Origin: a virus
Virus record (IMG/VR): IMGVR_UViG_3300035670_000584
Span: 1-38,892 of that record
Length of the DNA: 38,892 bases
Strand: one strand, 5' to 3'
Of the stretch, positions 1 to 38,892 are shown one piece after another. Each line of letters opens with the position of its first letter. The stretch's first letter is position 1. The notes below the pieces were generated by a model, which saw only the letters and a list, made by a program, of their open reading frames with translations, had not been told where the DNA came from and searched no databases. A program made the translations under genes and the position numbers.

Positions 1-103
1 TGATAGTGGATACTATAATATCAAAGCCGATTTAACACGGTCGGGGACAATATCATATATAAGAGCAAAATATTGGGACGTTGTCGATAGCGAACCTGCC
101 AAT
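1..103. repeat. Left copy of the terminal repeat
   Basis: Positions 29-103 are identical to 38818-38892. Positions 1-28 match 38790-38817 with six differences, five of them synonymous third-position changes and the sixth the first base of the window, outside any complete codon. Both copies encode the same peptide in the same frame. This joins the two window ends into one circle or terminally redundant molecule. The clustered silent differences suggest that two strain variants meet at the join. Confidence 0.9.
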
Positions 104-226
104 TGGCAAATAAATACTTCTGATGATAATGCAATCACATCAGATGGTAACGACTATTGCGGAGTATTCGCAAGTTGGGGAGATAACGTAAATTTTGATA
201 ATTATAGCATAACATGGACAGAATAA
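2..226 (+). CDS. C-terminal end of jelly-roll fibre protein (continues from 38290)
   Basis: This is an open frame of 74 codons with no start, ending at TAA 224-226. Its first 34 residues equal the last residues of the frame that runs off the right edge from 38290, so the two pieces are one protein of roughly 240 residues. The fragment (Trp-Asp-Val-Val-Asp early, ending Ser-Ile-Thr-Trp-Thr-Glu) resembles the last strands of a lectin-like beta sandwich with alternating polar and hydrophobic residues. The next gene follows after 9 bases with its own AAGGAG site, so the two are probably co-transcribed. A role in surface binding is inferred from the neighbouring fibre genes, not from a recognised family. 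Confidence 0.8.
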   Translation, partial: DSGYYNIKADLTRSGTISYIRAKYWDVVDSEPANWQINTSDDNAITSDGNDYCGVFASWGDNVNFDNYSITWTE

Positions 227-10784: not shown

Positions 10785-10957
10785 CAGGCAAAGGATTAAA
10801 GGATTTAGTGTTGTATATTATAGGAGTTTTAATTGCGTTATTGATGGCGTTATTTGCGATGGTATGGCGAAGTGATGATACGAGTTGGGATAAGTTGGTA
10901 GGACAGACATTTGAACAAGATATAAGTTGGAAGGAGATAGCGCAAAATGAAGAATAG
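10781..10957 (+). CDS. Small single-pass membrane protein
   Basis: The protein has 58 residues. MTGKGLKD is followed by a 20-residue hydrophobic helix (LVLYIIGVLIALLMALFAMV) and an acidic tail rich in Trp and Asp. Both ends overlap neighbours: ATGA with the gene before, and 11 bases with the fibre gene after. AGGTGGAAGC precedes the start. The size and one helix fit a small inner-membrane phage protein such as a lysis or exclusion peptide. Its function is unknown. Confidence 0.65.
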   Translation: MTGKGLKDLVLYIIGVLIALLMALFAMVWRSDDTSWDKLVGQTFEQDISWKEIAQNEE

Positions 10958-11876
10958 AGTTTTAGGATTATTAATTGGATTATTGTTAATTGGTGGCGTT
11001 GCGAATGGTGCATGGGATGAAACAAAGCCAACTGATACAGGATTATTGAAAGATGCACCTGCACAGATTCGGGCGAATTGGGATGCGATTGCATTGGGGA
11101 CGGATGCAGATTTGCAGATTACAAATGCGAAAGTGTCAGCATCGGCAGGAATAGTCGATACAAAACTAGCGCAGTTATCAACGGCAGGGAAGGTTGCAGG
11201 TTCGGCATTGACGACGTTCAGCACAATCCCAAGTGGTGCAGGATTGATTCCCGATGCAAACTTATCGCATAAACTTAAAGCAGATAGCGGTGATACGACA
11301 CCGCAGTATTTAGATGGTTTGATTGACACGAATGATTTTCAGATTTCGGCAGGGGATTTGTTACAAATTAAAGATTCAGCGTTAACGGGGATAACTACAC
11401 TTGCGTATCTTACGACAACGGGTAATTTGTGGGTTCAAGCGAACGCATCGGTGGCAGGGACATTGGGTGTAACTGGCGCAACAGGAATTACAGGAACACT
11501 AACATTAGCAAAGGATTTATCGGTTAATAAAGATTTTACTGTTGGCGGTAATATATATTCTAATTCAAGAGTATCACCAATGGTATATGCTAACAATTTG
11601 ACTACGAGCGGAGTATTAAAAACTGATAGTGTTGTTACTTCTCAAAACATCAAAATTTGTCAAGGATATAGAACAGTTGGTGGCGAAACGAGTGCTACTG
11701 TAACTGGATTGCCATTTACATCAAATTCTGTCTATCATGTTGTGTTAACACTTGGCGAAAATAATACATTGAATAGATATAATATGAAAGTAAACCGTGA
11801 TAGCGGTTCTCAATTCACCATATATAATCCAAATGGTGCATCTCTAAATTGTAATTGGATAGCGGTCGGAACATAA
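10947..11876 (+). CDS. Tail-fibre-like protein with Sec signal peptide
   Basis: The protein has 309 residues. It starts MKNRVLGLLIGLLLIGGVANG, a textbook signal peptide with a likely cut after Ala-Asn-Gly. Next comes a block seen in many phage fibres (WDETKPTDTGLLKDAPAQ, then IRANWDAI). Shaft-like repeats with 'LTLAKDLSVNKDFTVGGNI' wording follow, shared with the long fibre at 32149. The ending is a C-terminal beta domain (FTIYNPNGASLNCNWIAVG). Fibre identity is well supported; a true export signal on a fibre is unusual. AAGGAG at 10931-10936 supports the start. The next gene also has a signal peptide. Confidence 0.75.
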   Translation: MKNRVLGLLIGLLLIGGVANGAWDETKPTDTGLLKDAPAQIRANWDAIALGTDADLQITNAKVSASAGIVDTKLAQLSTAGKVAGSALTTFSTIPSGAGLIPDANLSHKLKADSGDTTPQYLDGLIDTNDFQISAGDLLQIKDSALTGITTLAYLTTTGNLWVQANASVAGTLGVTGATGITGTLTLAKDLSVNKDFTVGGNIYSNSRVSPMVYANNLTTSGVLKTDSVVTSQNIKICQGYRTVGGETSATVTGLPFTSNSVYHVVLTLGENNTLNRYNMKVNRDSGSQFTIYNPNGASLNCNWIAVGT

Positions 11877-11888
11877 GGAGTATAAACA

Positions 11889-12326
11889 ATGAGGACAATA
11901 ATAATATTACTTTTGTTGTGTAGTTTAGCGTATGCAGGAACGGGAGAAGTTATTACTGGATATGGGTATATTTCAGAGAATGGTAAAGTTATTTCAAAGA
12001 TTCAGCGTGAGATTGGTTCGTCAGTTGATTTAGCAGAAGGGCAGACATATACCGAAGTTGCTAATGTTGAAGAACTAACAGCGGTTGAATTGTTCAAGTA
12101 TAGAGCGAATGATTTAATTGAGTGGGGTATGACGAATTATCCTGCGTTTATTGGGACACCACATGAATACGTTTTGTTAGCGTTTGCGAATGACCCTAGC
12201 GGTTATAAGGATTTATTATTAGCAAGAGCAACTATATTGGACACATCATTAGGTGGAACAACATTTACAGATACTGCTAATGCTTTGATTGCTAAAGCGC
12301 AAGAATTAGGTGCGGTAATAGAATAA
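11889..12326 (+). CDS. Exported helical protein of unknown function
   Basis: The protein has 145 residues. MRTIIILLLLCSLAYA is followed by Gly-Thr-Gly, a clear Sec signal peptide with an Ala-Tyr-Ala cleavage site. The mature part opens with a Gly/Tyr-rich beta stretch and continues as helices (ELTAVELFKYRANDLIEWG and ANALIAKAQELGAVIE). AAGGAG precedes ATG 11889 and the fibre gene ends 12 bases earlier, so the two are likely partners. It may be a fibre-assembly or accessory protein in the periplasm; this is inference from adjacency. Confidence 0.65.
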   Translation: MRTIIILLLLCSLAYAGTGEVITGYGYISENGKVISKIQREIGSSVDLAEGQTYTEVANVEELTAVELFKYRANDLIEWGMTNYPAFIGTPHEYVLLAFANDPSGYKDLLLARATILDTSLGGTTFTDTANALIAKAQELGAVIE

Positions 12327-20342: not shown

Positions 20343-21521
20343 ATGGTAAAGACCGATTACGTTATAGAGCAAGTCAATATCAACGATTTGATTCCTGCCG
20401 AATATAATCCACGCAAGGGTTCACCGAAACAATACGATGAGTTGAAAAAGTCAATGGAACGGTTCGGAATGGTTGACCCGATTATCGTGAACAAGGCAGA
20501 AGAACGAAAGAATATAATTATCGGTGGGCATTTCAGATATAAAGTCGCTCGGGATATTGGGTTGCAGAGCGTTCCTGTTGTCTATATTGACGTTCCCGAT
20601 TTAAAGAAGGAGCAGGAATTAAACCTGCGGTTGAATAAGAACACGGGTGAGTTTGACTTTGATTTGTTGGCTAATATTGATGAGCAACTACTTGTTGATG
20701 TTGGCTTTACATCCGAGGAATTAGATAGGATATTCCAAATTAACAACGACGAGAAGGATGATGTCGTCCCAGAAGTGCAGGATAACGAGTTTGATGTTAA
20801 GCGTGGGGATATTTGGAAGCTTGGGAATCATCGTCTTATGTGTGGAGATAGCACGAACGCAGGTGATGTTGCGTTGCTGATGGACGGGAAAAGGTCAGGG
20901 ATGATACACACAGACCCACCGTATAACGTTGATTATGGAGTGTCAAAAAACCCTCGCCATAAAATTAGAACAATCGAAAACGACAAGCAATCGCCAGAAG
21001 AATGGGAGAATTTCTGTAAATCATTGTTTCAGATATTTAAGGACTTTAACGATGGCGACATTTATATGTGGGGTGCGTCAAGCGGAGAAGGGATGAGGAT
21101 GAGATTGTGGCTCATCGAGAGTGGATGCCATTGGTCGGCAACGATTATATGGAAGAAGCAACAACTTGTTTTATCACCTGCTAAATATCAAAGAATATAT
21201 GAGCCGTGTTTTTATGGGTGGTTTAACAAAAGTTCTTTCGTTGGTGATAGGAAACAAACAGAAGTGTGGGAAATCGACCGTCCGTTAGATAGCAAACTGC
21301 ATCCAACAATGAAACCCGTTGAGTTATGTCAAAAGGCGATATTAAACTCAAGTGAACGAGAACAGATTGTCCTTGATTTATTTCTTGGAAGTGGCTCAAC
21401 GCTTATTGCTTGTGAGAAAACGGCACGGATTTGTTACGGGATGGAAATATCGGAGCATTATTGTTCGGTAATTATAAAGAGATGGCAGGATTTCACAGGG
21501 CAGAAGGCAGAGAAAGTATGA
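20343..21521 (+). CDS. ParB-domain / DNA methyltransferase fusion
   Basis: The protein has 392 residues. Residues 10-100 are a ParB/sulfiredoxin-type N-terminal domain (YNPRK; IIGGHFRYKVARDIG). From about residue 155 there is an N6-adenine/N4-cytosine methyltransferase: DPPYNVDYG (191-199, catalytic) and, near the end, LDLFLGSGSTLIACEKT (binding AdoMet, 344-360) then MEISEHYCSVIIKRW. The motif order (DPPY first, FxGxG last) is the beta class. Phages use such fusions next to terminase, probably to mark or protect their DNA or to control packaging. The target sequence cannot be read from the protein. The weak AAAGAG site lies just after the structured leader. Confidence 0.85.
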   Translation: MVKTDYVIEQVNINDLIPAEYNPRKGSPKQYDELKKSMERFGMVDPIIVNKAEERKNIIIGGHFRYKVARDIGLQSVPVVYIDVPDLKKEQELNLRLNKNTGEFDFDLLANIDEQLLVDVGFTSEELDRIFQINNDEKDDVVPEVQDNEFDVKRGDIWKLGNHRLMCGDSTNAGDVALLMDGKRSGMIHTDPPYNVDYGVSKNPRHKIRTIENDKQSPEEWENFCKSLFQIFKDFNDGDIYMWGASSGEGMRMRLWLIESGCHWSATIIWKKQQLVLSPAKYQRIYEPCFYGWFNKSSFVGDRKQTEVWEIDRPLDSKLHPTMKPVELCQKAILNSSEREQIVLDLFLGSGSTLIACEKTARICYGMEISEHYCSVIIKRWQDFTGQKAEKV

Positions 21522-25260: not shown

Positions 25261-26148
25261 ATGGAAAAGGTTTTCAAGACGTTTAAAGGTGAAGTGAAAG
25301 CGGTTGATGAGAAGGAGCGAATCGTTGAAGTGATTGTATCAACCGAGTCGAAGGATAGGGACAGCGAACGGATTTTATTAAGTTCATTTAAGAAACGGTT
25401 AGGGACGTATAAGGCACATCCTATTTTGTTATCAAGCCATAGATACGATTCGTTGCAAAATCAGATTGGCGAAGCGGTAAGCGTTAAGGTTACAGACGAT
25501 GGATTGAGGGCGAAGTTCAAATATTACACGGGAGAAGGAAATGCGGAAGCAGATTGGGGATTTAACCTTGCAACAAAGGGAATCGCAGGTTATTCGATTG
25601 GCTTTATGGCACATCAATTCGAGGATTCTACAAAAGAGGAATTTGAAAAGACAGGAATATGGCGAACATTTACCGATATTGAGTTATTTGAAATAAGTCA
25701 GGTTTTGATTCCATCAAATCGTGATGCGGTGCAGGAACGGCAAGGGAAAGCGGAAGGAATAGAGCGTGAGATGTGCGAGTTGGCTATTAAGTCAATATTT
25801 CCTGCCGAGATTAAGGCAGAGGATACGACAACGACCGAACAGAACACTACTATTGAAAATGTTAAGCAAGAAAATATAGAAGCGGTCATTACGGAAGTGA
25901 AAGAAACAGGCGTTAGCGAGGAACGGGTTAAGGAATTGATTGCGGAGTTTGTTAAGTCAGATGAGTTCGTTGGTATTGTAAAATCAATCACAACGGAGAA
26001 ACAAGATAAGCATTATTCAGAATTATTATTTAAGTCAAGTAAAGAAGATGAAAACGGTGAAGTGGATATTGAATCCGATGAACTTTCACCACTAATAGAT
26101 ATGATTAGGTCAACAATCAAAGATTCGTTAAAAGGAGTTGTAAAATAA
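25261..26148 (+). CDS. Prohead protease (S78/U35 type) with scaffold-like tail
   Basis: The protein has 295 residues. Residues 1-165 match HK97-type prohead proteases: STESKDRDSERILLSSF, a candidate catalytic His in ILLSSHRYDS, Ser in AGYSIGFMAHQ, and LFEISQVLIPSNRDAV. The rest is acidic, helical and low complexity and probably works as a scaffold that is later degraded. ATG 25261 with AAGGGGTGAGG is preferred to an upstream TTG. The stop overlaps the capsid start (TAATG). Confidence 0.88.
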   Translation: MEKVFKTFKGEVKAVDEKERIVEVIVSTESKDRDSERILLSSFKKRLGTYKAHPILLSSHRYDSLQNQIGEAVSVKVTDDGLRAKFKYYTGEGNAEADWGFNLATKGIAGYSIGFMAHQFEDSTKEEFEKTGIWRTFTDIELFEISQVLIPSNRDAVQERQGKAEGIEREMCELAIKSIFPAEIKAEDTTTTEQNTTIENVKQENIEAVITEVKETGVSEERVKELIAEFVKSDEFVGIVKSITTEKQDKHYSELLFKSSKEDENGEVDIESDELSPLIDMIRSTIKDSLKGVVK

Positions 26149-27353
26149 TGGAAGATATTTTGAAGGAAGTAAAAGGAGCAATACAACCTGCGATTGACAA
26201 AATTGCAGATGTCGAGAAGTCAGTAAAAGAATTGGGCGAGAAGGTTAAGAAGATTGAGGATTTACCTGCGATGCAAGCACCTGCAATCAAAACTCGTTCA
26301 CAGATTTACAAAGGGTATAACCTTGATTATCAGTTATCAAATATTCGTAATAATGCGAAAGCATTGGGATTGAAAACCCTTGCTGATGATGAGAAGGCAG
26401 ACGATTTCAGCAAGTTCGTCATTGATTTCTTGAAAGTAAAACGTGGCGATATGTCTGCTCAAGAAGGTCTGAAACAGTTTTACGCAAAAGCACAGATGCA
26501 GAACAACACGGATTCAGAGGGCGGTTATTTAGTTCCGCAAGAGTATGCAACGGATATTATTCAACTCGCTCGTAACCGTTCATTTGCATTGAATGAATGT
26601 TCGGTTATCCCGATGAGCCGTGATACGCTGAAGATTCCAAAAGAATTAACGCTCGTCAGCGTTGAGTGGGATGTCGAGGAAGGTGCGATTGGCGAAAGTG
26701 AGCCGACCTTTGCAGAAATTGATTTAACAAACAGACGGTTGAACGCTTATGCTAAAGTAACGAATGAATTGTTGCAGGATTCAGCGATTGATATTGTCGG
26801 TATGTTAACCGAGCAGTTTGCGTATGCCACAGGTCTTGAATTGGACAATCAGGTATTGAACGGAACAGGAGCGCCATGCTCGGGACTTTTGACGGCAAAT
26901 GCAGGTTATTCGGTTATTTGCGCTTCGGGTGCAAGTATGTCAACGGTTACGGCAGGGAAATTCAGCGAAATGATTAGCAAAATTGAGGAAGGTTATTTGC
27001 AGGGTTCAAAGTTTGTGATTAACCGTCTTGGTTTACATTATTTGCGGTCATTAGCAGATAGTACGGGACAACCGATTTTCGCTATGCCACAGGGTTCGGT
27101 TGCAGGAACGATATTCCAATATCCGTATATCATGTCTGAAAAGATTGCAAATACAGACGGTGCATCAAAGGCATTTGTTGTATTCGGTAATCTTAAAAAG
27201 TTTCTCATTGGGCAGAGATTAGGGACTATGTCATTGGATGTTGACCCTTACACATTGTTCTTATCGTATGCAACCCAATTCAGGATTGTAACGAGATGGG
27301 CATTGGCTAATGGTAATACATCAGCGTTCGTTCGTTTATTGACAAGTTCGTAA
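26148..27353 (+). CDS. Major capsid protein (HK97 fold)
   Basis: The protein has 401 residues. Residues 1-45 form a helical, charged delta-like domain (ILKEVKGAIQPAIDKI and VKELGEKVKKIEDL). It is normally removed by the protease at about residues 45-115, just before a mature N-terminus in front of GGYLVPQEYATDI. HK97 landmarks follow: EEGAIGESEPTFAEIDL, VTNELLQDSAIDIVG, LELDNQVLNGTGAPCSGLL, and the end VTRWALANGNTSAFVRL. It forms the icosahedral shell. It begins in the protease stop, and the gap after it (27354-27442) contains a hairpin. Confidence 0.93.
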   Translation: MEDILKEVKGAIQPAIDKIADVEKSVKELGEKVKKIEDLPAMQAPAIKTRSQIYKGYNLDYQLSNIRNNAKALGLKTLADDEKADDFSKFVIDFLKVKRGDMSAQEGLKQFYAKAQMQNNTDSEGGYLVPQEYATDIIQLARNRSFALNECSVIPMSRDTLKIPKELTLVSVEWDVEEGAIGESEPTFAEIDLTNRRLNAYAKVTNELLQDSAIDIVGMLTEQFAYATGLELDNQVLNGTGAPCSGLLTANAGYSVICASGASMSTVTAGKFSEMISKIEEGYLQGSKFVINRLGLHYLRSLADSTGQPIFAMPQGSVAGTIFQYPYIMSEKIANTDGASKAFVVFGNLKKFLIGQRLGTMSLDVDPYTLFLSYATQFRIVTRWALANGNTSAFVRLLTSS

Positions 27354-27442: not shown

Positions 27443-27994
27443 ATGAGAAAGATTTTAGTTATTGGTTCAGCACCGTATATCGTCAGGTGGTATAACAAGC
27501 ACAGAAGCGTTTTATTGCGTGATGGATATACGATATGTGCGATAAATAATGCGTGGGCGGTAAGTAGGGAAGATACGCAGGTGTGGTTTCATTCAACTGA
27601 TTTCTTTACATTGGATAATACGGTTAAACCTGATATAAAGAAAGATATGCTTAAAACGTGGGAGATTACGCATTATAAGGCAGAGCCGTATTGGTATGAC
27701 AAGCAAGAAAGCGGAACAATGATACTAAATGTGTTAGCACATATATTAAATGAGTTGGTTACAAATAAGGTTAAAGGAGATGTGTTTATTGCAGGATGTG
27801 ATTTGAATTATAACAATGTTATAAATCATTTCTATTGCAACGGGCAGAATGACCCGATGCGGTTCGGTGAAGATTATCTTGTAAATGAGTTGATAAAGAT
27901 GGGCAATAATTATGAGCATGAAGGGATTGGAATTTATAATGTTGGCGGTCGAGAGGATTCGTTATTGCCATTTAAGAGGATTGAAATATGTTAA
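27443..27994 (+). CDS. Rossmann-like protein, DUF115/sialyltransferase-like
   Basis: The protein has 183 residues. MRKILVIGSAPYIVRWYNKH begins with a nucleotide-binding-like strand and a Gly-x-x-Pro turn. TICAINNAWAV and VWFHSTDFFTL follow, and later VFIAGCDLNYNNVINHFYC with a conserved-looking Gly-Cys-Asp. This pattern resembles DUF115 and related sugar-nucleotide or sialyltransferase-type enzymes. It is the first of four overlapping genes with radical SAM and glycosyltransferase products. AAAGAAAGAAAAT precedes ATG 27443. The substrate is unknown and the family call tentative. Confidence 0.5.
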   Translation: MRKILVIGSAPYIVRWYNKHRSVLLRDGYTICAINNAWAVSREDTQVWFHSTDFFTLDNTVKPDIKKDMLKTWEITHYKAEPYWYDKQESGTMILNVLAHILNELVTNKVKGDVFIAGCDLNYNNVINHFYCNGQNDPMRFGEDYLVNELIKMGNNYEHEGIGIYNVGGREDSLLPFKRIEIC

Positions 27995-28830
27995 CGGTTT
28001 TATTTATGCCAACGCTACGGTGCAATTTGAAATGTGATATGTGCCATTTCAAATTACAGTATCATAAGGACGGTGTGTATGAGTGGAATGCATACGGTAA
28101 GGAGCATAAGGTTAAAGAGGAAGTCGATTGGTTTCAATGGAGTTATATGTTAAGGAAATACGAGCCATTCCATTTAGAGATTACGGGCGGTGAGCCATTA
28201 TTATATAAAGATTTGGGCAAGATATTGCAGGACATATCGCTATTATCATCATGGGCGATTACGTCAAATACATTATTAGATGTTGAAACGATACCGCTTG
28301 ATAAGTGTATATGTTGGACGGCTTCATGGCATGGCATTGATAGAGAACAGTTTTTATTTAATTTAGGGTATTTAAAAAGTCAGGTTAGTTTAAGTGTTTC
28401 TATCGTTGTTACGTTCGATAAGATTGATTATTGGTTAGCAGAAGCAGAGCAGTTCAAGACATTAGGATATAGGGTTAATTTATTACGGGAGTTAAATCCA
28501 TCGGTTAATTGGGATGGAACGCCTGAATGGAACAGATTATTAATGATGCGGTTAAATGGCTTTAATGTTGTTGAGGATGATATACCGCCAAATTATACAT
28601 TCGAAAGCGGATTCCGATGTGATGCAGGTAATAGATATTTCTGCGCTATGCCTGATGGGAATTTATATAGATGTTACAGCGAAGCGATGTTAGGTGAGCC
28701 GATTGGATATGTTGGTAGTGCGGATTTAGATATTGATTCGCACGATTGCTATTCGAAATGTCTTGCCTGTTCATTGGATTATCGGTTTAGAAAATCTAAA
28801 CTAACGAAAAAGGAAGGAATCAAATGTTAA
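27988..28830 (+). CDS. Radical SAM protein with SPASM-like cysteines
   Basis: The protein has 280 residues. Cys12, Cys16 and Cys19 (RCNLKCDMCHF) form the CxxxCxxC cluster site that binds the 4Fe-4S used with S-adenosylmethionine, and ITGGEPLLY (65-73) is the GGEP motif. A second cysteine set (Cys211, 219, 229, 254, 258, 261) looks like a SPASM/twitch auxiliary cluster site. Such enzymes often modify peptides or proteins by radical chemistry. It overlaps its upstream and downstream neighbours by 7 bases each. A radical SAM gene between capsid and neck genes is unusual. Target unknown. Confidence 0.85.
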   Translation: MLTVLFMPTLRCNLKCDMCHFKLQYHKDGVYEWNAYGKEHKVKEEVDWFQWSYMLRKYEPFHLEITGGEPLLYKDLGKILQDISLLSSWAITSNTLLDVETIPLDKCICWTASWHGIDREQFLFNLGYLKSQVSLSVSIVVTFDKIDYWLAEAEQFKTLGYRVNLLRELNPSVNWDGTPEWNRLLMMRLNGFNVVEDDIPPNYTFESGFRCDAGNRYFCAMPDGNLYRCYSEAMLGEPIGYVGSADLDIDSHDCYSKCLACSLDYRFRKSKLTKKEGIKC

Positions 28831-29033
28831 CAGGAATGTCGATTTACAGATGTCCGAAATGTAAAGGTGAATTGATGTATCACCCAGCGAGAAATGTTAA
28901 TTGCCTTAATTGTAATGTAACATTAATTGAGATTACAAAGGGAATAGTGAATAAAAGCATTATTGCGAATGATGAACAACCGATAAAGGCGAAACGTGGC
29001 AGAAAACCTAAAATCACAAGTATTGCCGTCTGA
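28824..29033 (+). CDS. Zinc-ribbon protein with AT-hook-like tail
   Basis: The protein has 69 residues. Cys pairs in RCPKCKGEL and NCLNCNVTL form a zinc ribbon (residues 9-12 and 27-30). The end, KAKRGRKPKITS, has the Arg-Gly-Arg core of an AT-hook. It overlaps the radical SAM gene by 7 bases and contains the glycosyltransferase start. It could bind DNA or RNA, or act as substrate or partner of the radical SAM protein. This is inference. Confidence 0.65.
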   Translation: MLTGMSIYRCPKCKGELMYHPARNVNCLNCNVTLIEITKGIVNKSIIANDEQPIKAKRGRKPKITSIAV

Positions 29034-30141
29034 TAAATTCCCGATTGCATGGATAACGCAAGACAATGACCTTGTCGGTAATGCTTTTGGGTATCGTGTT
29101 CATAATTCGTATATGAAGAAATACAGCGCAAAGTATTTCTCATTCGATTACCGTTCAGATATTGCATTACACATAGTTCCTGCCGATAAGTTCAAATACA
29201 TACCGAACAAATTTAATATCTTATTTACGATGTGGGAGTTCTTGGATATACCGAAAACGTATGAACGGGCGTTGAAAGAAGCGGACATGATTGTTGTGCC
29301 GTGTTCGTTTTGTCGGGATTTGTTCGCACGATATACAACGAAGCCGATTTATGTTTGTTGGGAAGGTGTTGAAGCGGAACGATTCCCGTTTAAAGAGCGT
29401 AATTTTACGCAAGGCGGTAAGTTTAGATTCCTGTGGGTTGGCGCTCCGAATCCACGCAAGGGGTATCCGATAGTATTAGAAGCAACGAAAGTATTTGAGC
29501 AAATACCGAATGTTGAAATATATCTAAAGACAACAACACATGCGGTTGATAGACGGGAGATATTACAACGGGTATTTAAGAACAGAAGCGAGTTGAGGAA
29601 ATCAAGACCTGATTACATAAGCGAGTTATTATATCGGTTACGGCAGGAGAAGATATACGATGGCGTTGCAAATAGCGTTAAGAAATTCGGCAAACATGAG
29701 AACATCATATTCGATACACGGATATTATCGAAAGAGGAATTAGTTGATTTATACCATTCAGCGCATTGTTTTATATTGCCGTCATTCGGGGAAGGGTGGG
29801 GATTGACGTTGAGTGAAGCGATGGCAACGGGAGCGCCTTGCATAAGCGTTGATTATACGGGTTGTAAGGATTTCTTTTCTGATTCGGTTGGTTATACATT
29901 GAAATATGCGTTTGCAGAGCAGGAATTAAAGAATTACGACTTAACGACACGGAGTTATGTTCCTGATACGCAGGATTTCGTTAATCAGATGTTTAAGGTA
30001 ATTATGGATTACGGTGAAGCGAAACGAAAAGGATTACGGGCGAGTGAGTTGATTAGAAATAAATTCACATGGGAACGGTCTGCTAAACGGTTATATGAAA
30101 TTATAATGATGGCAAAAGAACAAATACGGAAGGTGGCGTGA
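28996..30141 (+). CDS. GT4-type glycosyltransferase
   Basis: The protein has 381 residues in the GT-B fold. Residues 140-155 read GKFRFLWVGAPNPRKGY, and the donor site is in LPSFGEGWGLTLSEAMATG, with Glu266 and Glu274 forming the E-x7-E motif typical of family 4 transferases. The N-terminal half (ILFTMWEFLDIP, then MIVVPCSFCRDLF) is like those of protein or lipid glycosyltransferases. GTG 28996 is required because the first ATG is 39 codons in. It overlaps the zinc ribbon by 38 bases and the neck gene by one base. Sugar and acceptor unknown. Confidence 0.85.
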   Translation: MAENLKSQVLPSDKFPIAWITQDNDLVGNAFGYRVHNSYMKKYSAKYFSFDYRSDIALHIVPADKFKYIPNKFNILFTMWEFLDIPKTYERALKEADMIVVPCSFCRDLFARYTTKPIYVCWEGVEAERFPFKERNFTQGGKFRFLWVGAPNPRKGYPIVLEATKVFEQIPNVEIYLKTTTHAVDRREILQRVFKNRSELRKSRPDYISELLYRLRQEKIYDGVANSVKKFGKHENIIFDTRILSKEELVDLYHSAHCFILPSFGEGWGLTLSEAMATGAPCISVDYTGCKDFFSDSVGYTLKYAFAEQELKNYDLTTRSYVPDTQDFVNQMFKVIMDYGEAKRKGLRASELIRNKFTWERSAKRLYEIIMMAKEQIRKVA

Positions 30142-30683
30142 TGATAGTTACATTGACAGACGTTAAAAACTATATGGGAATAACGAGGATAACGGATGAT
30201 GTTGTTTTATTCCGCATATTAGAACGGGCAGACAGGCAGATGAAAAGCGAATGTAGAAGGGAATTTGAATCAGCATCGAGAACGGAGTATTACGATGGAT
30301 TTGCAACGTGTGAATTGAATGTTCGTGAAGCACCTATCACGGCAATTACATCAATATATGACGATTGTGATATTGCGTTTGGGAGCGATACGCTGATACC
30401 TGCAACGGATTATTATTATGATGCGAACAAGGGGATAATTTATCTTAAATATTCGGTATTTACGAAAGGCATTAAGAATATAAAGGTTGTTTATACAGCA
30501 GGATATTCGGCAATGACAATGCCGTATGACGTTAAGAAGGCGGTCATTAACCTTGCGTGTGCGGATTATATAGAATCACAGGGTGCATTGAACGCAATTC
30601 AGGCGGTTGATTATGTGTATAAACCTGATTTATTGAGGAAAGAAGCGTATAAGATAATCAATCTATATAAAAGGTATGTGTAA
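30141..30683 (+). CDS. Head-tail connector (gp6-like)
   Basis: The protein has 180 residues. It starts MIVTLTDVKNYMGITRITDD and ends in helices (VKKAVINLACADYIESQGAL; LRKEAYKIINLYKRY), with the middle beta segment TEYYDGFATCELNVREAPIT. This is the pattern of HK97 gp6-type adaptor proteins that sit under the portal. ATG 30141 is preferred over GTG 30138, with GGAAGGTGG upstream. It is coupled to the glycosyltransferase by TGATG, so the cassette and neck genes are one operon. Confidence 0.8.
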   Translation: MIVTLTDVKNYMGITRITDDVVLFRILERADRQMKSECRREFESASRTEYYDGFATCELNVREAPITAITSIYDDCDIAFGSDTLIPATDYYYDANKGIIYLKYSVFTKGIKNIKVVYTAGYSAMTMPYDVKKAVINLACADYIESQGALNAIQAVDYVYKPDLLRKEAYKIINLYKRYV

Positions 30684-31736: not shown

Positions 31737-32135
31737 ATGGCAAAATGGTGTGATGAAGGCGAAAACAGAGTTGCAGACATATTATTTGATGACCAAGCGG
31801 TTGATGCTACGTTGTATCTAGGATTATATGAAAATTCGACCGAACCTGCGGAAGATGCGACATTGGCAGGGATTACGGAACAGGCAGGTGGAACGGGATA
31901 TGCACGGATTGAATTAACACGGGGAACATGGACAGTAACGGGTTCAGTTGCGAGTTATGCACAACAAACATTCACGGCAAACGGTGGCGATTGGGGTGAC
32001 CAATACGGTTATTTTATTGCAACGAGTTCAGATGGTTCAGGGAAGTTATTATGTGTTGAGCATTTCTCCGATGGTCCTTATGCGGTAACGGATGGTGATT
32101 CAGTTAAGATTACGCCTAGCATTACAGTTGGCTAA
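31737..32135 (+). CDS. Structural protein of unknown class at start of the fibre block
   Basis: The protein has 132 residues, beta-rich, with Trp-Cys near the start and ATLYLGLYENSTEPAED in the first third, later YARIELTRGTWTVTG. Similar 'lyLGLyen' phage proteins are found near structural genes, without defined role. AAGGAG at 31724-31729 sets ATG 31737. It is the last gene before the long fibre, which begins 13 bases downstream. Confidence 0.55.
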   Translation: MAKWCDEGENRVADILFDDQAVDATLYLGLYENSTEPAEDATLAGITEQAGGTGYARIELTRGTWTVTGSVASYAQQTFTANGGDWGDQYGYFIATSSDGSGKLLCVEHFSDGPYAVTDGDSVKITPSITVG

Positions 32136-32148
32136 CGAAAGGCATTTG

Positions 32149-35100
32149 ATGAAACGGATATTTCTTTTAATTTTATTGCTTATTGTAAGCATAACGGGTT
32201 TGGCTTATGGCGAGGATTGGAAGGAAGACCCTTCATCACCGAGTTATACGGAGAACACATACACGGCAAATGCTAATTTGTTTATCGCTCCATACGCATC
32301 ACCTCGTTATGATTTGACACTTAATAGAAACCTTGTGATTCTTGATTCTATATTAGGCGATGTTGAGTATAACGCTGATTTGACGGACGATGTTACAAAA
32401 TGGGTTAGTGTTACATATCCGAATCTTGATACTGATTCAACGGATGATTTGGTTATTGATGATGTTTATACTGCGATTAAAGGAAGTGGATTTGAGAACA
32501 GGACGGATTCAAGCATAGCGTTTGAGGATTCAAGTAGAACGCTTACAATCACGGGAACATTTAATATTTATTCTCAAGTTGCAGGGGTAACGACTAAATA
32601 TAGCAAAACAACGGCAGGAATAATTATACCTGATGTCGAGGGGTTATATTTTGTTTATTATACTGCATTAGGGGTATTGACACAATCGACTACGGCATGG
32701 GATTTCACGACAGGTAAGATTTTCGTTGCAACGGTTTATTGGGATGGCACGAAGGGGTTACTTACAGACGAACGTCATGGCGTAATTATGGACGATGCAA
32801 CGCATGAATTATTGCATGATTGTATCGGGACGTTATATGAAACAGGACTAGCAGGAACGATAACAGATAGCGGATTTATTATTGCAGAAGGTCAGATTGA
32901 CGATGAAGATTTAGAGATTGATATTGATGAGCAGAAATTTTGTCGTGTTGTTTGGAATGATGCAGGAACGGGGACGATTGATTGCACGACAGCGCAGAAT
33001 AAATATTATTATGAATCATCTGATATTATTCAGTATGACGATGGTGATGGGACACCTGCTGATGTTGATAATAACTCGTATGTTGCCTATTGGCTATTTG
33101 CGACAAACGAGATAGCAACACCAATCTATTCTATTATGGGACAACGGACAGATGTCCTATTGGCTAACGCTCGTGAGAATAATACTTTATCATCTTTAAA
33201 TTTAAGAATACCATCAAAAGAATACAGAGTATTATATAGAGTTATTTTGCAAAGAAGTGGAACAAGCGAAACATATATTGAATCAACTGATTATCGTGCG
33301 GTATCGCCATCACCGAGTGGGACGTATGTTCCAACTGACCACGGGACATTGGCAGGATTGACGGATAACGACCATACGCAGTATTTATTAAGAACTGATG
33401 TAACGCCTACGGGTGCTATTTCTAACGGTAGCACGGCACTTGTTACTGCTGATACGGTCTATGATGCAGGGTATATAACAGACGGGAACACGGGATGGGA
33501 CAACACATATAACCTATTAGATAAAGATACAGATTCTATAACGGCATTGAGTGGTAATTTATCAGTAGGGCAGTTTAATTCGGGGACGAACGCATCGGGT
33601 TCAACGTATTGGCGTGGTGATGGGACATGGGTTGCGGTTAGCGGAAGTGCTGATACGGATTGGACGGAATCGGGCGATATTATATCAACGGTTGACGATG
33701 TATATGTATTCGGTAATGTCAGCGTATCGGAATGTATTACGATTGCAGATACGATATTCTGCGATACATTTGAAACGATTGACGGCACAGGGGATTTCTC
33801 AATCGAGAACGGTGGGTTAACGATTGAAGGTTGTTTGACGGTATCGAGTATGCTATCGCCAACAGGAACAGTTTATGAGATGGTGTGGGATTCAGCGACA
33901 GGACAGGTTGGACGTAGTAATGTTGCGTTTCCGATTGGTGGCGGTAGCGTTGGAAGCGGTGATATTGAAGGTGTTAATGTAAGCGGTCTATTAGGTGGTG
34001 GTGGAGATAGTGGAACTGTTACGGTATCGTTAGGTGTGATTGATATATCATCAGCATCAACGGTAAGCGGAACATTACGCCATGAAAACGGTGGACTTGA
34101 AGCGGATGTTTCTGCTTATAATGGGTTCGTTAAAATAAGCGGTGGCTCAACAAGCGCAGTTACGGCTAATGCAGGGACAGATATTACTGCTGACCTTGAG
34201 GAAGAAGTAACAGAAGGTTCGTTGGCGGATTCGGTTATTGTTAGTGCAGATATAAAAGACGGTGAAGTAGGACACCTTGATATTGCAACTGATGCTGTTG
34301 GCGCAGACGAATTAAGTGCATCAGCAGTTGAGAGTGAACTTGAAGCGGTATTAGATTTAGCAGAATTACAAGGTGAAGTTACTACGGCTCAACTGCCAGA
34401 TAACGTGACAACTGGTTTAGTATTAACAACTGACCTAGCGAGTCTTGCAGTAGATGTTACAACTTCAAAAGGTGTATTCGTTGCTGATAGTGCATATGGT
34501 GCAGGTTGGAATGGACGGACAAATGTTCCTACAATGAACGCAGTATACGATGCTATTGAAGCCCTAGAAGTTGGTGGTATGACTAACATAGTTGACACCG
34601 CAGAAGGTGTGCAGATAACGGGTGATGCAACGGTGAGTGTGAATGTTACTGCGGTAGGTGGGATATTCTCCGCTGATGTTGCATATGGTTCGTCATGGAA
34701 TGGCAAGACACAGTTGCCAACGATGAACGCTTTATATGACAAGATTGAAACACTTGGCGGTTCTAGCATATGGACAGATACAGAAGAAGGTGCATATATC
34801 GGGCAGAACTTAACCGTAGATGGTTCTTTGTCATTAGGTAATAACCTAACGGTCAATAAAGACCTACGGGTTAATGGCGATTTGACGGTTGATGGAATTA
34901 ATCTATTAGCGTTTAGTCGTGGTGATTTATACGGCAACGGTCAGATATGGCAGGATGGAAGCAATCTTATCGAGTTGACGGTTACAGGAACAGGGTTGGT
35001 TAAGATGTGGGCAGACCTGTCGGTTGATGATTCATTGACGGTTGATAACACGATATGGGCGGTATATTACAGAGGTGCAGGGACATATCTAACGGCACTT

Positions 35101-35805
35101 GACGGTGAGAATATAACTGATGATACGATTGATGATGATTCGATTGATTTCACGGATGTTACATTAGCAGATTTGACCTTTGACGTTGGTTCTGTTGATA
35201 CGACAGAATTTGGATATCTTAACGGGGTAACGAGTTCGATACAAGACCAATTAGGCGGTAAACAGGCAACGGTAACAGAAGGTAGCCTTGCAGATAATGT
35301 AATTGTATCGGCAGATATTAAGGATGGTGAAGTCGGTAGTGGTGATTTAGCGGACGGAACACAGGCATCACCGATTACATTCACTAACCTGCAATCGCAG
35401 GATGCAACTGTTACTGGTTCGTTGAGTGTATCAACACTTGTCTATACACGCAATAGGATGTCACAACCGATTATGTCGTTGAACATCAATACTCCAACGG
35501 TATCATTTGACGACATAAAAAAGAAGTTCCCACGACCTATGACGGTAACGGCAGTATATATATTCGTTACTGGTGGGACGAGCGTTGAGTGTTCGCTTGG
35601 TGCGGTTGATTCAGATGGTAATGATTCAGACATAGCGGATGTAAACGGTGCTAATTTCACGGCATCGGCAGGGACACAGTTAGCCGATACATCAATGGGT
35701 GGAACGGCTACACTACTTGCAGACGAATGGTTACAGTTTGATACGGTGGCGGTCACAGGTGCGGTTACTAACATAAGTGTAACGGTGTATGGATATGAAA
35801 CATAA
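32149..35805 (+). CDS. Long tail fibre-like protein with signal peptide
   Basis: The protein has 1218 residues. MKRIFLLILLLIVSITGLAYG is a typical signal peptide (cut after Leu-Ala-Tyr-Gly or nearby). Fibre motifs include LAGLTDNDHTQYLL, two copies of VTEGSLAD[SN]VIVSADIKDG (about 34210 and 35272), two copies of an 'AYG..WNG.T..PTMNA.YD.IE.L' unit (34470-34566 and 34656-34755), and shaft text (LTVNKDLRVNGDLTVDGI) shared with the fibre at 10947. CGAAAGG precedes ATG 32149. Fibres normally fold in the cytoplasm, so an export signal is unexpected. Receptor binding is inferred. Confidence 0.75.
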   Translation: MKRIFLLILLLIVSITGLAYGEDWKEDPSSPSYTENTYTANANLFIAPYASPRYDLTLNRNLVILDSILGDVEYNADLTDDVTKWVSVTYPNLDTDSTDDLVIDDVYTAIKGSGFENRTDSSIAFEDSSRTLTITGTFNIYSQVAGVTTKYSKTTAGIIIPDVEGLYFVYYTALGVLTQSTTAWDFTTGKIFVATVYWDGTKGLLTDERHGVIMDDATHELLHDCIGTLYETGLAGTITDSGFIIAEGQIDDEDLEIDIDEQKFCRVVWNDAGTGTIDCTTAQNKYYYESSDIIQYDDGDGTPADVDNNSYVAYWLFATNEIATPIYSIMGQRTDVLLANARENNTLSSLNLRIPSKEYRVLYRVILQRSGTSETYIESTDYRAVSPSPSGTYVPTDHGTLAGLTDNDHTQYLLRTDVTPTGAISNGSTALVTADTVYDAGYITDGNTGWDNTYNLLDKDTDSITALSGNLSVGQFNSGTNASGSTYWRGDGTWVAVSGSADTDWTESGDIISTVDDVYVFGNVSVSECITIADTIFCDTFETIDGTGDFSIENGGLTIEGCLTVSSMLSPTGTVYEMVWDSATGQVGRSNVAFPIGGGSVGSGDIEGVNVSGLLGGGGDSGTVTVSLGVIDISSASTVSGTLRHENGGLEADVSAYNGFVKISGGSTSAVTANAGTDITADLEEEVTEGSLADSVIVSADIKDGEVGHLDIATDAVGADELSASAVESELEAVLDLAELQGEVTTAQLPDNVTTGLVLTTDLASLAVDVTTSKGVFVADSAYGAGWNGRTNVPTMNAVYDAIEALEVGGMTNIVDTAEGVQITGDATVSVNVTAVGGIFSADVAYGSSWNGKTQLPTMNALYDKIETLGGSSIWTDTEEGAYIGQNLTVDGSLSLGNNLTVNKDLRVNGDLTVDGINLLAFSRGDLYGNGQIWQDGSNLIELTVTGTGLVKMWADLSVDDSLTVDNTIWAVYYRGAGTYLTALDGENITDDTIDDDSIDFTDVTLADLTFDVGSVDTTEFGYLNGVTSSIQDQLGGKQATVTEGSLADNVIVSADIKDGEVGSGDLADGTQASPITFTNLQSQDATVTGSLSVSTLVYTRNRMSQPIMSLNINTPTVSFDDIKKKFPRPMTVTAVYIFVTGGTSVECSLGAVDSDGNDSDIADVNGANFTASAGTQLADTSMGGTATLLADEWLQFDTVAVTGAVTNISVTVYGYET

Positions 35806-36406
35806 GATTATAGCGGTTATTATATGTCTGTTGATGTGCGGTAATGTGTATGCTCTATCAACGGGTGCGAAAGTTCCGACATCATCATCAACTGCATCAT
35901 CTGACCCGCATAGCGATAATGATTGGGTAACGATAGCAGAAATATATTCTAATAACGGGACACACGCAAACATAACGGACAATACTTATGACAATGGTGA
36001 CCAATCATATCTTGCGTATGTTAAAGGGTTTGATTTCTCTGCCTTGCCAACTGATGCAGTTATCACAGGAGTAACGCTTGAGTTTGAAGCGTATTATGCA
36101 GTTGGTGGCAGTTCGATTGATTATCTATATTTATTAGATGCCAGCGGTGCGGTGCAAGGTAATAATAATTGTGCGACACCATACGCATTATCAGCAACGG
36201 CAGGAACAACATTCACACGGGGTAGTTCATCTGACACATGGGGTGCGACATTAACAAGGGCGATTGTAACTGATGCTGATTTTGGTATATGTTTAGGCAC
36301 GATTGCAACGGGTAATAACTCTGATATATATTTCGATTATGTAACAATGACGATTGAATATACAAGCGCATCAACTGCAACAGGGCAGGTGATAATATGC
36401 GATTGA
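35789..36406 (+). CDS. Exported beta-sandwich protein 1 of the fibre block
   Basis: The protein has 205 residues (203 if ATG 35795 is used). MDMKHKIIAVIICLLMCGNV ending Tyr-Ala is a signal peptide. The mature part begins with a Ser/Thr-rich stretch (PTSSSTASSDPHSDNDW) and continues as strands (ITGVTLEFEAYYAVGGSSID; DIYFDYVTMTIEYT), the outline of a carbohydrate-binding-like beta sandwich. It overlaps the long fibre's end by 17 bases and the next gene by 10. No named family is certain. Confidence 0.6.
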   Translation: MDMKHKIIAVIICLLMCGNVYALSTGAKVPTSSSTASSDPHSDNDWVTIAEIYSNNGTHANITDNTYDNGDQSYLAYVKGFDFSALPTDAVITGVTLEFEAYYAVGGSSIDYLYLLDASGAVQGNNNCATPYALSATAGTTFTRGSSSDTWGATLTRAIVTDADFGICLGTIATGNNSDIYFDYVTMTIEYTSASTATGQVIICD

Positions 36407-37203
36407 TTGCGACAACGATATTACTCCTAATGTTCGGCACGATAGCGAGTGCAGGGCTTTGGTTTGGTGGGGTGGAGCCGAGTGGTGCAACCGATTACAC
36501 TAAAGATGCAGATTGTGTGTTCGCTTGTTATATGAATGGCGAAACGACAGAAGTTGATAGAAGTGGTGCTAGTGGTAATTTGTCTGTTTCAGATGGTGAT
36601 ACGATTGAAAGGTCAACGACAGTTCCAACAGGATATAGTGGTTACTCAAGGACATTTGCAACCGCTGATGCTGATGGTCTATATCATGCTGACGAATTGG
36701 CAACTGACATAAATGGTGTTGATGCTCAATGGACTATTGTTGCGTGGATATATAGGTCATCCGTAGGAGCGACACAAGCAGTAGTATCAAAATATAACAC
36801 ATCGGCAAACAGGCAATATATCCTATATGCAGGACTTGATAATGATATGGGTGCATTTGCATCTGGTGATGGAACAAATATTACACAATCATGGACACCT
36901 AATAACAGCATAGGAAGCACATCGACTTGGTATCATATTGCGTATGTTTGCGATGATGTCAATTTAACAGGTTATTTGAACGGTGATGTGGCTACAAGTG
37001 CAGGAGAAAATCCGCTATCGTATACAAACGGATTATATGACGGTTCTGCTCTTTTTTCTATTGGTGTTAGAATAGCTGACGGTGGATTCGGTTTTGATGG
37101 CTTGATTGACGAGGTTGCGGTTTTTAAGAGGGCATTGTCAGAATCAGAGATTGAAGAAATAATGACATACGGTATTGACGGAACAAATGGTGGAAATGAT
37201 TAA
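36397..37203 (+). CDS. Exported LamG/concanavalin-like lectin domain protein
   Basis: The protein has 268 residues. MRLIATTILLLMFGTIASAG is a clear signal peptide (Ala-Ser-Ala). The rest is a LamG-like jelly roll: QWTIVAWIYRSS, WYHIAYVCDDVNLTGYLNGD, and the hallmark end FDGLIDEVAVFKRALSESEI. Such domains bind sugars or proteins at surfaces. AGGTGATAAT before ATG 36397 is a good site; it overlaps both neighbours. A host surface-glycan role is inferred. Confidence 0.75.
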   Translation: MRLIATTILLLMFGTIASAGLWFGGVEPSGATDYTKDADCVFACYMNGETTEVDRSGASGNLSVSDGDTIERSTTVPTGYSGYSRTFATADADGLYHADELATDINGVDAQWTIVAWIYRSSVGATQAVVSKYNTSANRQYILYAGLDNDMGAFASGDGTNITQSWTPNNSIGSTSTWYHIAYVCDDVNLTGYLNGDVATSAGENPLSYTNGLYDGSALFSIGVRIADGGFGFDGLIDEVAVFKRALSESEIEEIMTYGIDGTNGGND

Positions 37204-38302
37204 ACGCACACTATCACTCATACTTATCTATCTCATGTTCAGCGGTTCGGTCTATCTTGGAAGGTATCCGTTGACAACGACTTCATTATTTGAATTTTCA
37301 GATAATTTTGCTACAACAATGGTAGATGAATATAGTGGTGTATGGTGTCCTGCTAGAGGAACATATACCATAACATCAGAAGAATTAGTTCATTCTGGTT
37401 CAATAGGAGAACCAGATTTTTTTATTATTAATGAACCAAAACAATTTATTAATGGTAGCATTGAGGTCAAAGCGAAAACAGTATCGACATACGAACATTG
37501 CGGTATCGCTTTTAGAATACAAGATATGAATAATTATTATTGTTGGCAATGGTGTAATAATTACAACACTCCCGATATGGAACTTGTTGTTGTTGTCGAT
37601 GGTGTAGAAACACAATTAGGAAGTGGAACTGGTTCTTATAACGACCTTGCTACATTTTATACAATGAAAGTTGTTCTTTCTGGCTCGTCAATTAAAACAT
37701 ATGTTGATGGTAATTTAATTGATGATGTAACTGACACGACATATTCACAAGGATATGTTGCTTTATATTCAAGTCGTGCATCTGGGCAAGGAACATATGA
37801 TGATTTCAGTATGTCAATGACTTATGTAAATGATACTCAAACTGGTTTGATAGAAGATAATAGTGATACTTATGCTGATTTTAGTTACTCTGGATGGGAC
37901 AGAGGTTTTGGTTCTGGAGAAACTTATCTGTGTGGTAGGTCTGGGCAAATAACTACAATATATTATGAGCATGATTCTACTCTTAATAGAGATGTTATGA
38001 ATTGTGGTGTATTTACAAAAGACAAATATATTGCGTTTTCAGTAAATGAAGGTGATGATGTTGGTAGCGGAGTATCATCATTTACATTGCAATATCCTAT
38101 GATTGTATTGGGTGGAGTTACTTATGGATTAGACACACAATGCGATGATACATCATGGGCAATGTGGGGAATAGTTGATGCTGGAGTGTCAACAGGACAT
38201 AATACTAGGTCGGAGATTGATTATCTTGGTTTGAACCAAGATGAAGCATCTCAAGGATATGATAACACAGCAGGAAGAAAGTTAAAACTATGGGCATCAT
38301 AA
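37187..38302 (+). CDS. Exported jelly-roll protein 2 of the fibre block
   Basis: The protein has about 371 residues. The N-terminus (MVEMIKRTLSLILIYLMFSG) resembles a signal peptide. It contains LFEFSDNFATTMVDEYSGVW, the opening of a DUF1080/LamG-like jelly roll, with GIAFRIQDMNNYYCWQW and SSIKTYVDGNLIDDV typical of that fold, then a second domain of unknown type. Candidate starts are ATG 37187, GTG 37190 and ATG 37196; none has an ideal site. Codon use (many GGT, ACT, TCT) differs from the older fibre genes, suggesting a newer acquisition. Confidence 0.65.
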   Translation: MVEMIKRTLSLILIYLMFSGSVYLGRYPLTTTSLFEFSDNFATTMVDEYSGVWCPARGTYTITSEELVHSGSIGEPDFFIINEPKQFINGSIEVKAKTVSTYEHCGIAFRIQDMNNYYCWQWCNNYNTPDMELVVVVDGVETQLGSGTGSYNDLATFYTMKVVLSGSSIKTYVDGNLIDDVTDTTYSQGYVALYSSRASGQGTYDDFSMSMTYVNDTQTGLIEDNSDTYADFSYSGWDRGFGSGETYLCGRSGQITTIYYEHDSTLNRDVMNCGVFTKDKYIAFSVNEGDDVGSGVSSFTLQYPMIVLGGVTYGLDTQCDDTSWAMWGIVDAGVSTGHNTRSEIDYLGLNQDEASQGYDNTAGRKLKLWAS

Positions 38303-38892
38303 AAAAAGCAATCTGCATACTATCAATATTCTTTATGGGATTCACGGTTGACATCGGTGGCACACGGGTAACTGATAATACTGGGACGATGCAGGGGTAT
38401 ATGAGTGGTAGCGAACAAGAGTATAGTTTTAGTGATAACTTTAATATTGCTAATACAACAGACCCAACGATAAATGATAATTGGGCAAAATCAACGGGCG
38501 AAGTAAATACATTCACGGCAAATATATCAAGCAATACATTATACATAACAAATGGTGATAATAATTCGTTGGTATATTATACGGGAGATACATCTATTGC
38601 AGAACCATCTGCACAAGTTGCTTGTAATCCTGGTTCTTCTGAAATTGCTGGCTTACTATTTTCGTCAGACGTTACTGGCGATACTGGATATACAGTAGAA
38701 ATACGAAATGGAACTGGTAACGGATTGAGGGTTGGTAGACGAATAGATGGAACGGGGACGACAACATTAGTTACATATACATTTACTCCCGATAGTGGTT
38801 ATTACAATATAAAAGCAGATTTAACACGGTCGGGGACAATATCATATATAAGAGCAAAATATTGGGACGTTGTCGATAGCGAACCTGCCAAT
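38290..38892 (+). CDS. Exported jelly-roll protein 3, cut by the window edge
   Basis: Two hundred and one codons are visible and the frame continues at 2-226, giving a protein of about 240 residues if the ends join. MGIIKKAICILSIFFMGFTV is signal-peptide-like. YSFSDNFNIANTTDP matches the opening strand of the protein before it, so the two are probably related jelly rolls. It overlaps the preceding gene by 13 bases. The C-terminal strand pattern contains TSTLVTYTFTPDSG-like text. A lectin-like role is inferred. Confidence 0.65.
   Translation, partial: MGIIKKAICILSIFFMGFTVDIGGTRVTDNTGTMQGYMSGSEQEYSFSDNFNIANTTDPTINDNWAKSTGEVNTFTANISSNTLYITNGDNNSLVYYTGDTSIAEPSAQVACNPGSSEIAGLLFSSDVTGDTGYTVEIRNGTGNGLRVGRRIDGTGTTTLVTYTFTPDSGYYNIKADLTRSGTISYIRAKYWDVVDSEPAN
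38790..38892. repeat. Right copy of the terminal repeat
   Basis: Matches 1-103: 75 identical bases at the outer end, six differences in the first 28. Encodes the same peptide as the left copy. Confidence 0.9.

Follow-up and report, generated by a model that had tools for sequence, protein, structure and literature searches.

The window analysed here, meaning the whole stretch of DNA, comprises positions 1 to 38,892 (38,892 bases) of IMG/VR record IMGVR_UViG_3300035670_000584, and its main genes lie on the + strand. Four genes occupy the slot between the major capsid protein (MCP) gene and the gene for a gp6-like head-tail connector (Table 1). A preliminary description had reported four overlapping genes at this place, and all of them are present on the + strand. 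The motifs that it named were likewise found, namely a radical SAM protein with GGEP, a zinc ribbon and an E-x7-E glycosyltransferase. The genes in its title were correct but their order was not, the actual order being DUF, radical SAM, zinc ribbon and GT4. In the GT4 gene the motif is E266-x7-E274, within GEGWGLTLSE, and both E266 and E274 are invariant in the GT4 alignment. Overlaps between adjacent cassette genes range from a few bases to 38, the end of the GT4 gene overlaps the start of the connector gene, and a purine-rich, plausible ribosome-binding sequence precedes each cassette gene start. The four genes are translationally coupled. A scan of the region for promoters and terminators returned sites no more numerous than in shuffles. 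Phage virion glycosylation systems are characterised by a virion glycan that depends on the phage glycosyltransferase and by a glycosyltransferase gene inside the structural gene block; the GT4 gene does lie in that block, in the interval between MCP and connector.

Table 1. Genes of the capsid-connector slot and its two borders in the window.
Feature	Position	Strand	Evidence	Note
HK97-type major capsid protein (MCP)	26148..27353	+	PF05065, E 3.9e-48; phrog_10, E 1e-56	Left border of the slot; possible acceptor
183-aa Rossmann-like protein, MptE/DUF115-type fold	27443..27994	+	Structure matches	Possible sugar/nucleotide-binding or glycosyltransferase-like enzyme
Radical SAM enzyme with short SPASM/twitch-type C-terminal cysteine region	27988..28830	+	PF04055, E 7.9e-6	
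Small zinc ribbon, CPKC...CLNC (CxxC...CxxC)	28824..29033	+		Probable GT4 partner
GT4 (GT-B) glycosyltransferase	28996..30141	+	PF00534, E 5e-15 (above cut-off); phrog_2170, E 2.9e-31	
gp6-like head-tail connector	30138..30683	+	PF05135, E 2.9e-6; phrog_442, E 3e-19	Right border of the slot

Third-position GC is 0.31-0.41 in the cassette genes and 0.31-0.44 in the phage's own structural genes. Host contamination or a chimera was rejected as an origin of the cassette, given this phage-like composition, the overlapping genes and the occurrence of the same order in other contigs. The ends of the window (1-104 and 38789-38892) have at least 70 identical bases in common, preceded by diverged bases and with no exact end repeat, and the open frame that runs off the right end continues into the left-end frame. 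Because the ends match and a frame runs across them, the contig is likely to be an almost complete circular map.

The radical SAM protein belongs to the superfamily: PF04055 matches all 21 members that were aligned, C12-x3-C16-x2-C19 and GGEP are invariant among them, and radical SAM folds are the top structural matches. The C-terminal region typically carries five cysteines, four of them invariant in the 21 members (C211-x12-G-x4-C229, C254 and C261, with the first spacing C-x12-13-G-x4-C across members). SPASM domains are defined by C-x9-15-G-x4-C, then C-x2-C-x5-C-x3-C and a seventh cysteine, and hold two auxiliary clusters. The C-x9-15-G-x4-C half was found in 21/21 members, followed by two invariant cysteines and one that is semi-conserved; the Pfam SPASM model matches 5/21, the window protein not among them. 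The SPASM-like cysteines reported previously are therefore present as a region, but not as a full seven-cysteine SPASM. The four conserved cysteines would fit a single cluster of the twitch or short-SPASM kind, in a cluster-free model whose residues 260-280 have pLDDT below 50.

The AlphaFold2 (AF2) model of this protein (mean pLDDT 85, last 20 residues poor) has a radical SAM fold. Structure matches over 248-256 residues were to SuiB (Z 17.7), MoaA (17.2) and DesII (16.7), with BlsE (Z 16.4), EpeE (about 15) and AbmM (14.3) following, whilst the top Foldseek ranks went to EpeE, AbmM and SpeY (SpeY E 1.3e-3). SuiB, SkfB, PqqE and EpeE modify peptides; DesII, BlsE, AbmM and SpeY act on sugars or aminocyclitols. 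Since peptide- and sugar-acting enzymes are mixed among the top matches of the model and score equally, the substrate is not derivable from the fold.

One reading of the cassette is that the radical SAM enzyme modifies a capsid or fibre peptide in the style of a RiPP maturase, with the zinc ribbon as recognition factor, and that the GT4 then glycosylates the modified residue. The motifs C-x12-G-x4-C and C-x3-C-x2-C do resemble SPASM, the Pfam SPASM model matches a minority of members (5/21), and SuiB, SkfB and EpeE are among the top structural matches. However, the first barrel strand of the model lies at residues 3-6, so that an N-terminal peptide-recognition extension is absent, and the usual count of only five C-terminal cysteines also speaks against a maturase. 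We regard this reading as unlikely, and the behaviour of the genes across related contigs, described below, bears on it further.

For the Rossmann-like protein, Pfam, PHROG, NCBIfam and PDB sequences gave no significant match. Its AF2 model (mean pLDDT 80.6, residues 125-137 poor) matched thiamine pyrophosphokinase 3lm8 (VIA Z 9.4, 125 aligned, rmsd 3.3) and the Methanocaldococcus jannaschii HPPK (MptE) 8sd5 (VIA Z 8.6, 130 aligned, rmsd 3.2); thiamine pyrophosphokinases tied with 8sd5, and the next family drops to Z 6.4. The best match in BFVD is an uncultured phage protein named MptE-like. By contrast, the PF01973 (MptE-like/DUF115) sequence model had no match at E <= 1 in the window or in 10 members, so the earlier label 'DUF115-like' holds at the level of the fold and not of the sequence family. 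As modelled, the protein has the MptE-type fold in common with these enzymes, and the fold does not give its function. Foldseek matches to sugar-nucleotide epimerases had low TM-scores (0.34-0.37) and were not relied on, and no GT42 sialyltransferase structure was among the structural matches listed for this protein. MptE-fold genes also occur outside the island in other phages, near portal or terminase genes (L061:3529-4149, L063:5779-6432).

A tblastn search with the window's radical SAM and Rossmann-like proteins against 50,697 phage records gave no match, and relatives of both were found in uncultured virus contigs. When IMG/VR was scanned with the capsid protein, one relative was returned, contig L002 (capsid 55% identical), whose slot holds radical SAM, zinc ribbon and GT4 genes; this contig was thus found through its capsid rather than its cassette. 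Profile scans of IMG/VR with the GT4, the radical SAM and the Rossmann-like protein brought the set to 21 distinct contigs (window counted, near-duplicates excluded) with a GT4 of the same type downstream of the capsid gene, all but one of these slot contigs being recruited through cassette genes (GT4, radical SAM or MptE-fold). The gp6-like connector follows the GT4 wherever the contig is long enough. A radical SAM gene is present in 15/21 and an MptE-fold gene in 6/21, and the exact four-gene order occurs in 4/21 (the window, L027, L029 and L035), whilst contig L058 stops after the zinc ribbon. Recurrence of the same gene types in the same slot, in contigs whose capsids are only 38-56% identical to that of the window, is well above chance. 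The preliminary description had allowed that the order might be unique to this contig; it recurs in other phages. In bacterial genomes the GT4 profile gave a single weak match, and the radical SAM profile, run on 296 genomes of one phylum, gave three long, distant matches with uninformative surroundings.

The remaining content of the slot varies widely. Between capsid and GT4, contigs L031 and L032 carry a GT2 and a GT-B-like protein; L038/L039 a methyltransferase, a GT-B-like protein, an NAD-dependent epimerase, a PIG-L deacetylase and DUF6625; and L037 a PIG-L, a Polysacc_synt_2 dehydratase, a DegT aminotransferase and a GNAT. In L073, LicD, GNAT and a cytidylyltransferase (CTP transferase) precede radical SAM and zinc ribbon, and in L041, L057 and L043 a methyltransferase-like gene or GT2 precedes radical SAM. 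The GT-B-like label of some of these proteins is a reading of the sequence, with no Pfam family matched, and some contigs (e.g. L037) show frame changes, possibly sequencing errors, and the cargo of these contigs was taken uncorrected, piece by piece. Under a strict set of glycan Pfams (GT2, PIG-L, epimerase/Polysacc_synt_2, DegT and LicD only), 11/29 cargo proteins matched, against 0/56 flanking proteins sampled in the same contigs (Fisher p 1.6e-6). The slot is therefore a hypervariable glycan island, and the four genes of the window are one variant of it rather than a fixed four-gene system. In L036 (1451-2021) an HNH-endonuclease-like gene seems to interrupt a GT-B-like gene of the island, of which the N-terminal fragment alone remains. 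In the cultured phages Dagobah and Javan113, whose capsids are distant homologues, MCP is directly followed by small unannotated genes only.

Mantel tests, run on pairwise identities after near-duplicates and distant outliers had been taken out, separated the GT4 from the radical SAM gene. MCP and GT4 identities were correlated (rho 0.45, p 0.001, n=21 contigs), as were those of MCP with portal, gp6 or neck, at similar values. MCP and radical SAM identities were not (rho -0.02, p 0.55, n=15), whereas MCP and GT4 within the same 15 radical SAM contigs were (rho 0.52, p 0.004). The GT4 is thus the constant gene of the slot, co-inherited with the head genes. As portal, gp6 and neck give similar values, linkage by itself can account for this co-inheritance; it is the radical SAM result, not the GT4 result, that calls for exchange between backbones. 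Two types of radical SAM protein are distinguishable, and they are found on mixed backbones. Contig L027, for one, has the GT4 nearest to that of the window (57% identical), yet its radical SAM protein is only 21% identical. The second radical SAM type is also found in further phage contigs that lack this GT4 in the neighbourhood (L071, L072, L075, L076, L078, L080-L083).

The zinc ribbon is kept beside the GT4 in contigs without radical SAM (L036, L038/L039 and L047), and for this reason it is more likely a partner of the GT4 than of the radical SAM enzyme, as judged from gene neighbourhoods; the opposite pairing, which had been considered, is weakened by the same contigs. A PHROG family, phrog_21308, is matched weakly by both GT4 and radical SAM proteins (E about 0.01-0.02) and may be a lead to a natural fusion of the two.

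These observations return to the maturase reading, against which stand the exchange of radical SAM independently of MCP, its replacement by sugar genes and the retention of the zinc ribbon where radical SAM is lacking. Gene context points instead to a sugar as the radical SAM substrate, rather than a peptide. The best reading is that the radical SAM gene behaves as a gene for sugar tailoring whose exchange does not follow the capsid lineage, unlike a peptide maturase acting on the capsid.

Taken together, the slot is probably a hypervariable virion-glycosylation island between capsid and connector in a lineage of uncultured tailed phages, in which the radical SAM enzyme tailors the sugar. Here we infer that the virion is the target, that a sugar is the radical SAM substrate and that the steps run as follows. 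Late in infection, a cytosolic GT4, perhaps docked through the zinc ribbon, would transfer a sugar from a nucleotide-sugar donor, made by host or phage, onto a protein of the virion, be it capsid, connector, tail or fibre. Tailoring of this sugar, e.g. by epimerisation, dehydrogenation or deoxygenation, would fall to the radical SAM enzyme and take place either on the nucleotide-sugar or after transfer, and the MptE-fold protein could contribute a further step of nucleotide or sugar binding. Among related phages the tailoring genes would be swapped and the GT4 kept, which would alter the surface glycan. Such a cytosolic transfer, with exchangeable enzymes that make or tailor the sugar, fits the head-operon position, the constancy of the GT4, the variability of the cargo and the absence of flippase-like membrane proteins from the slot. 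The idea of a glycosylation and radical-chemistry cassette acting on the virion, put forward in the preliminary description, is strengthened because the order recurs, related phages have other sugar genes in its stead and the GT4 lineage tracks that of the capsid; it is modified in that the four genes are one variant of the island, a peptide-maturase role is unlikely and the zinc ribbon goes with the GT4. More tentatively, the island might be a combinatorial 'coat serotype' locus, pairing a fixed, capsid-matched GT4 with exchangeable sugar genes and displaying on the virion a radical SAM sugar new to viruses.

The genes directly 3' of the GT4 suggest a second candidate acceptor. These genes have a signal-peptide-like start in 8/20 contigs and are often fibre-like, against 25/280 of other genes (p 5e-4, with a crude detector), and the signal-peptide-bearing proteins after the GT4 are accordingly listed as candidates. 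Signal peptides on virion or exported fibres are unusual. The window itself has a run of Sec signal-peptide-like proteins in or beside the structural region (32092-38892 and 10947-12326; 1237, 205, 268, 375, 201+, 309 and 145 aa), and 36397-37203 resembles a LamG/concanavalin-type lectin.

An island of sugar genes could also serve to alter the host surface polysaccharide during infection, by way of superinfection exclusion or receptor masking, and leave the virion as it is. LicD, PIG-L and DegT are characteristic members of surface glycan clusters. Pelagimyophage glycosyltransferases, in a region with radical SAM cassettes, have been read as modifying the host O-chain (PMC7029224). Here, however, the genes sit within the head operon, a single fixed GT4 lineage tracks the head genes, and flippase- or polymerase-like membrane proteins are absent from every slot. 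The 87 slot genes included no flippase-like membrane protein, the sole hydrophobic stretches being two N-terminal signal-peptide-like starts (L040) and an over-extended start (L002). We therefore consider a host-surface role quite improbable. Glycosylation of modified phage DNA bases is very improbable indeed: although phage glycosyltransferases do hypermodify DNA (Pyle et al. 2024, as cited in PMC12619734), and an MptE-like fold beside radical SAM recalls pterin and deazaguanine enzymes, the position in the head operon argues against it. Moreover, no hydroxymethyl-pyrimidine or deazaguanine synthesis gene was recognised among the window proteins examined, a subset of which was library-scanned, and the only DNA-modifying candidate is a ParB/N6_N4 DNA methylase-like gene (20343-21518) near the terminase.

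Reports of glycosylated virions exist for a few actinobacterial phages. That phage-encoded enzymes glycosylate virions is already known, whilst a swappable island beside the capsid gene that includes a radical SAM cassette appears to be undescribed; a search of the open-licence literature returned no description of a radical SAM-GT4 cassette beside a phage capsid gene. If virion glycosylation by the island is correct, closely related viruses could wear different sugar coats. A capsid-adjacent locus that swaps whole sugar pathways would make the diversity of phage coat glycans directly testable and would help to account for the repeated presence of glycan genes in head operons, and the island would be a source of radical SAM enzymes that probably act on carbohydrates.

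The closest functional parallel is that of the mycobacteriophages Che8, Corndog and Myrna, in which capsid and tail tube are glycosylated by the phages' own glycosyltransferases (Freeman et al. 2023, as cited in PMC12363180 and PMC12619734). The likeness lies in phage-encoded glycosyltransferases, with glycans reported in those accounts on capsid and tail-tube proteins. The same accounts report no radical SAM, zinc ribbon or MptE-like partner, whereas the window holds a multigene, exchangeable capsid-connector cassette known from its genes. Arthrobacter phage KellEzio gp28 and Microbacterium phage Magritte gp31 are GT4-type proteins, about 24% identical, encoded in the head-tail gene block, but they are located after the tail terminator and without radical SAM. 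In both phages a small one-CxxC protein with similar sequence (VDLVLHRF / VDLVIHRY) follows the glycosyltransferase (L023:8702-8911 in KellEzio, L025:8929-9072 in Magritte), a possible counterpart of the zinc ribbon to judge by its motif and place. Another phage contig, L012 (2499-11752), has by eye a large glycan block after a capsid-like gene, with a 944-aa multi-domain glycosyltransferase-like protein, two radical SAM genes, a split transketolase-like pair, and epimerase-like and methyltransferase-like genes. DesII, BlsE, AbmM and SpeY resemble the window's radical SAM protein in their barrel and have comparable fold scores; however, they are only 13-16% identical to it, and peptide enzymes score equally. 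Finally, the pelagimyophage host-recognition region (PMC7029224) is likewise hypervariable and combines glycosyltransferases with radical SAM gene cassettes. That region lies in the tail-fibre area of large myophages and GT8 is its commonest glycosyltransferase, whereas the island of the window adjoins the capsid gene and keeps one constant GT4.
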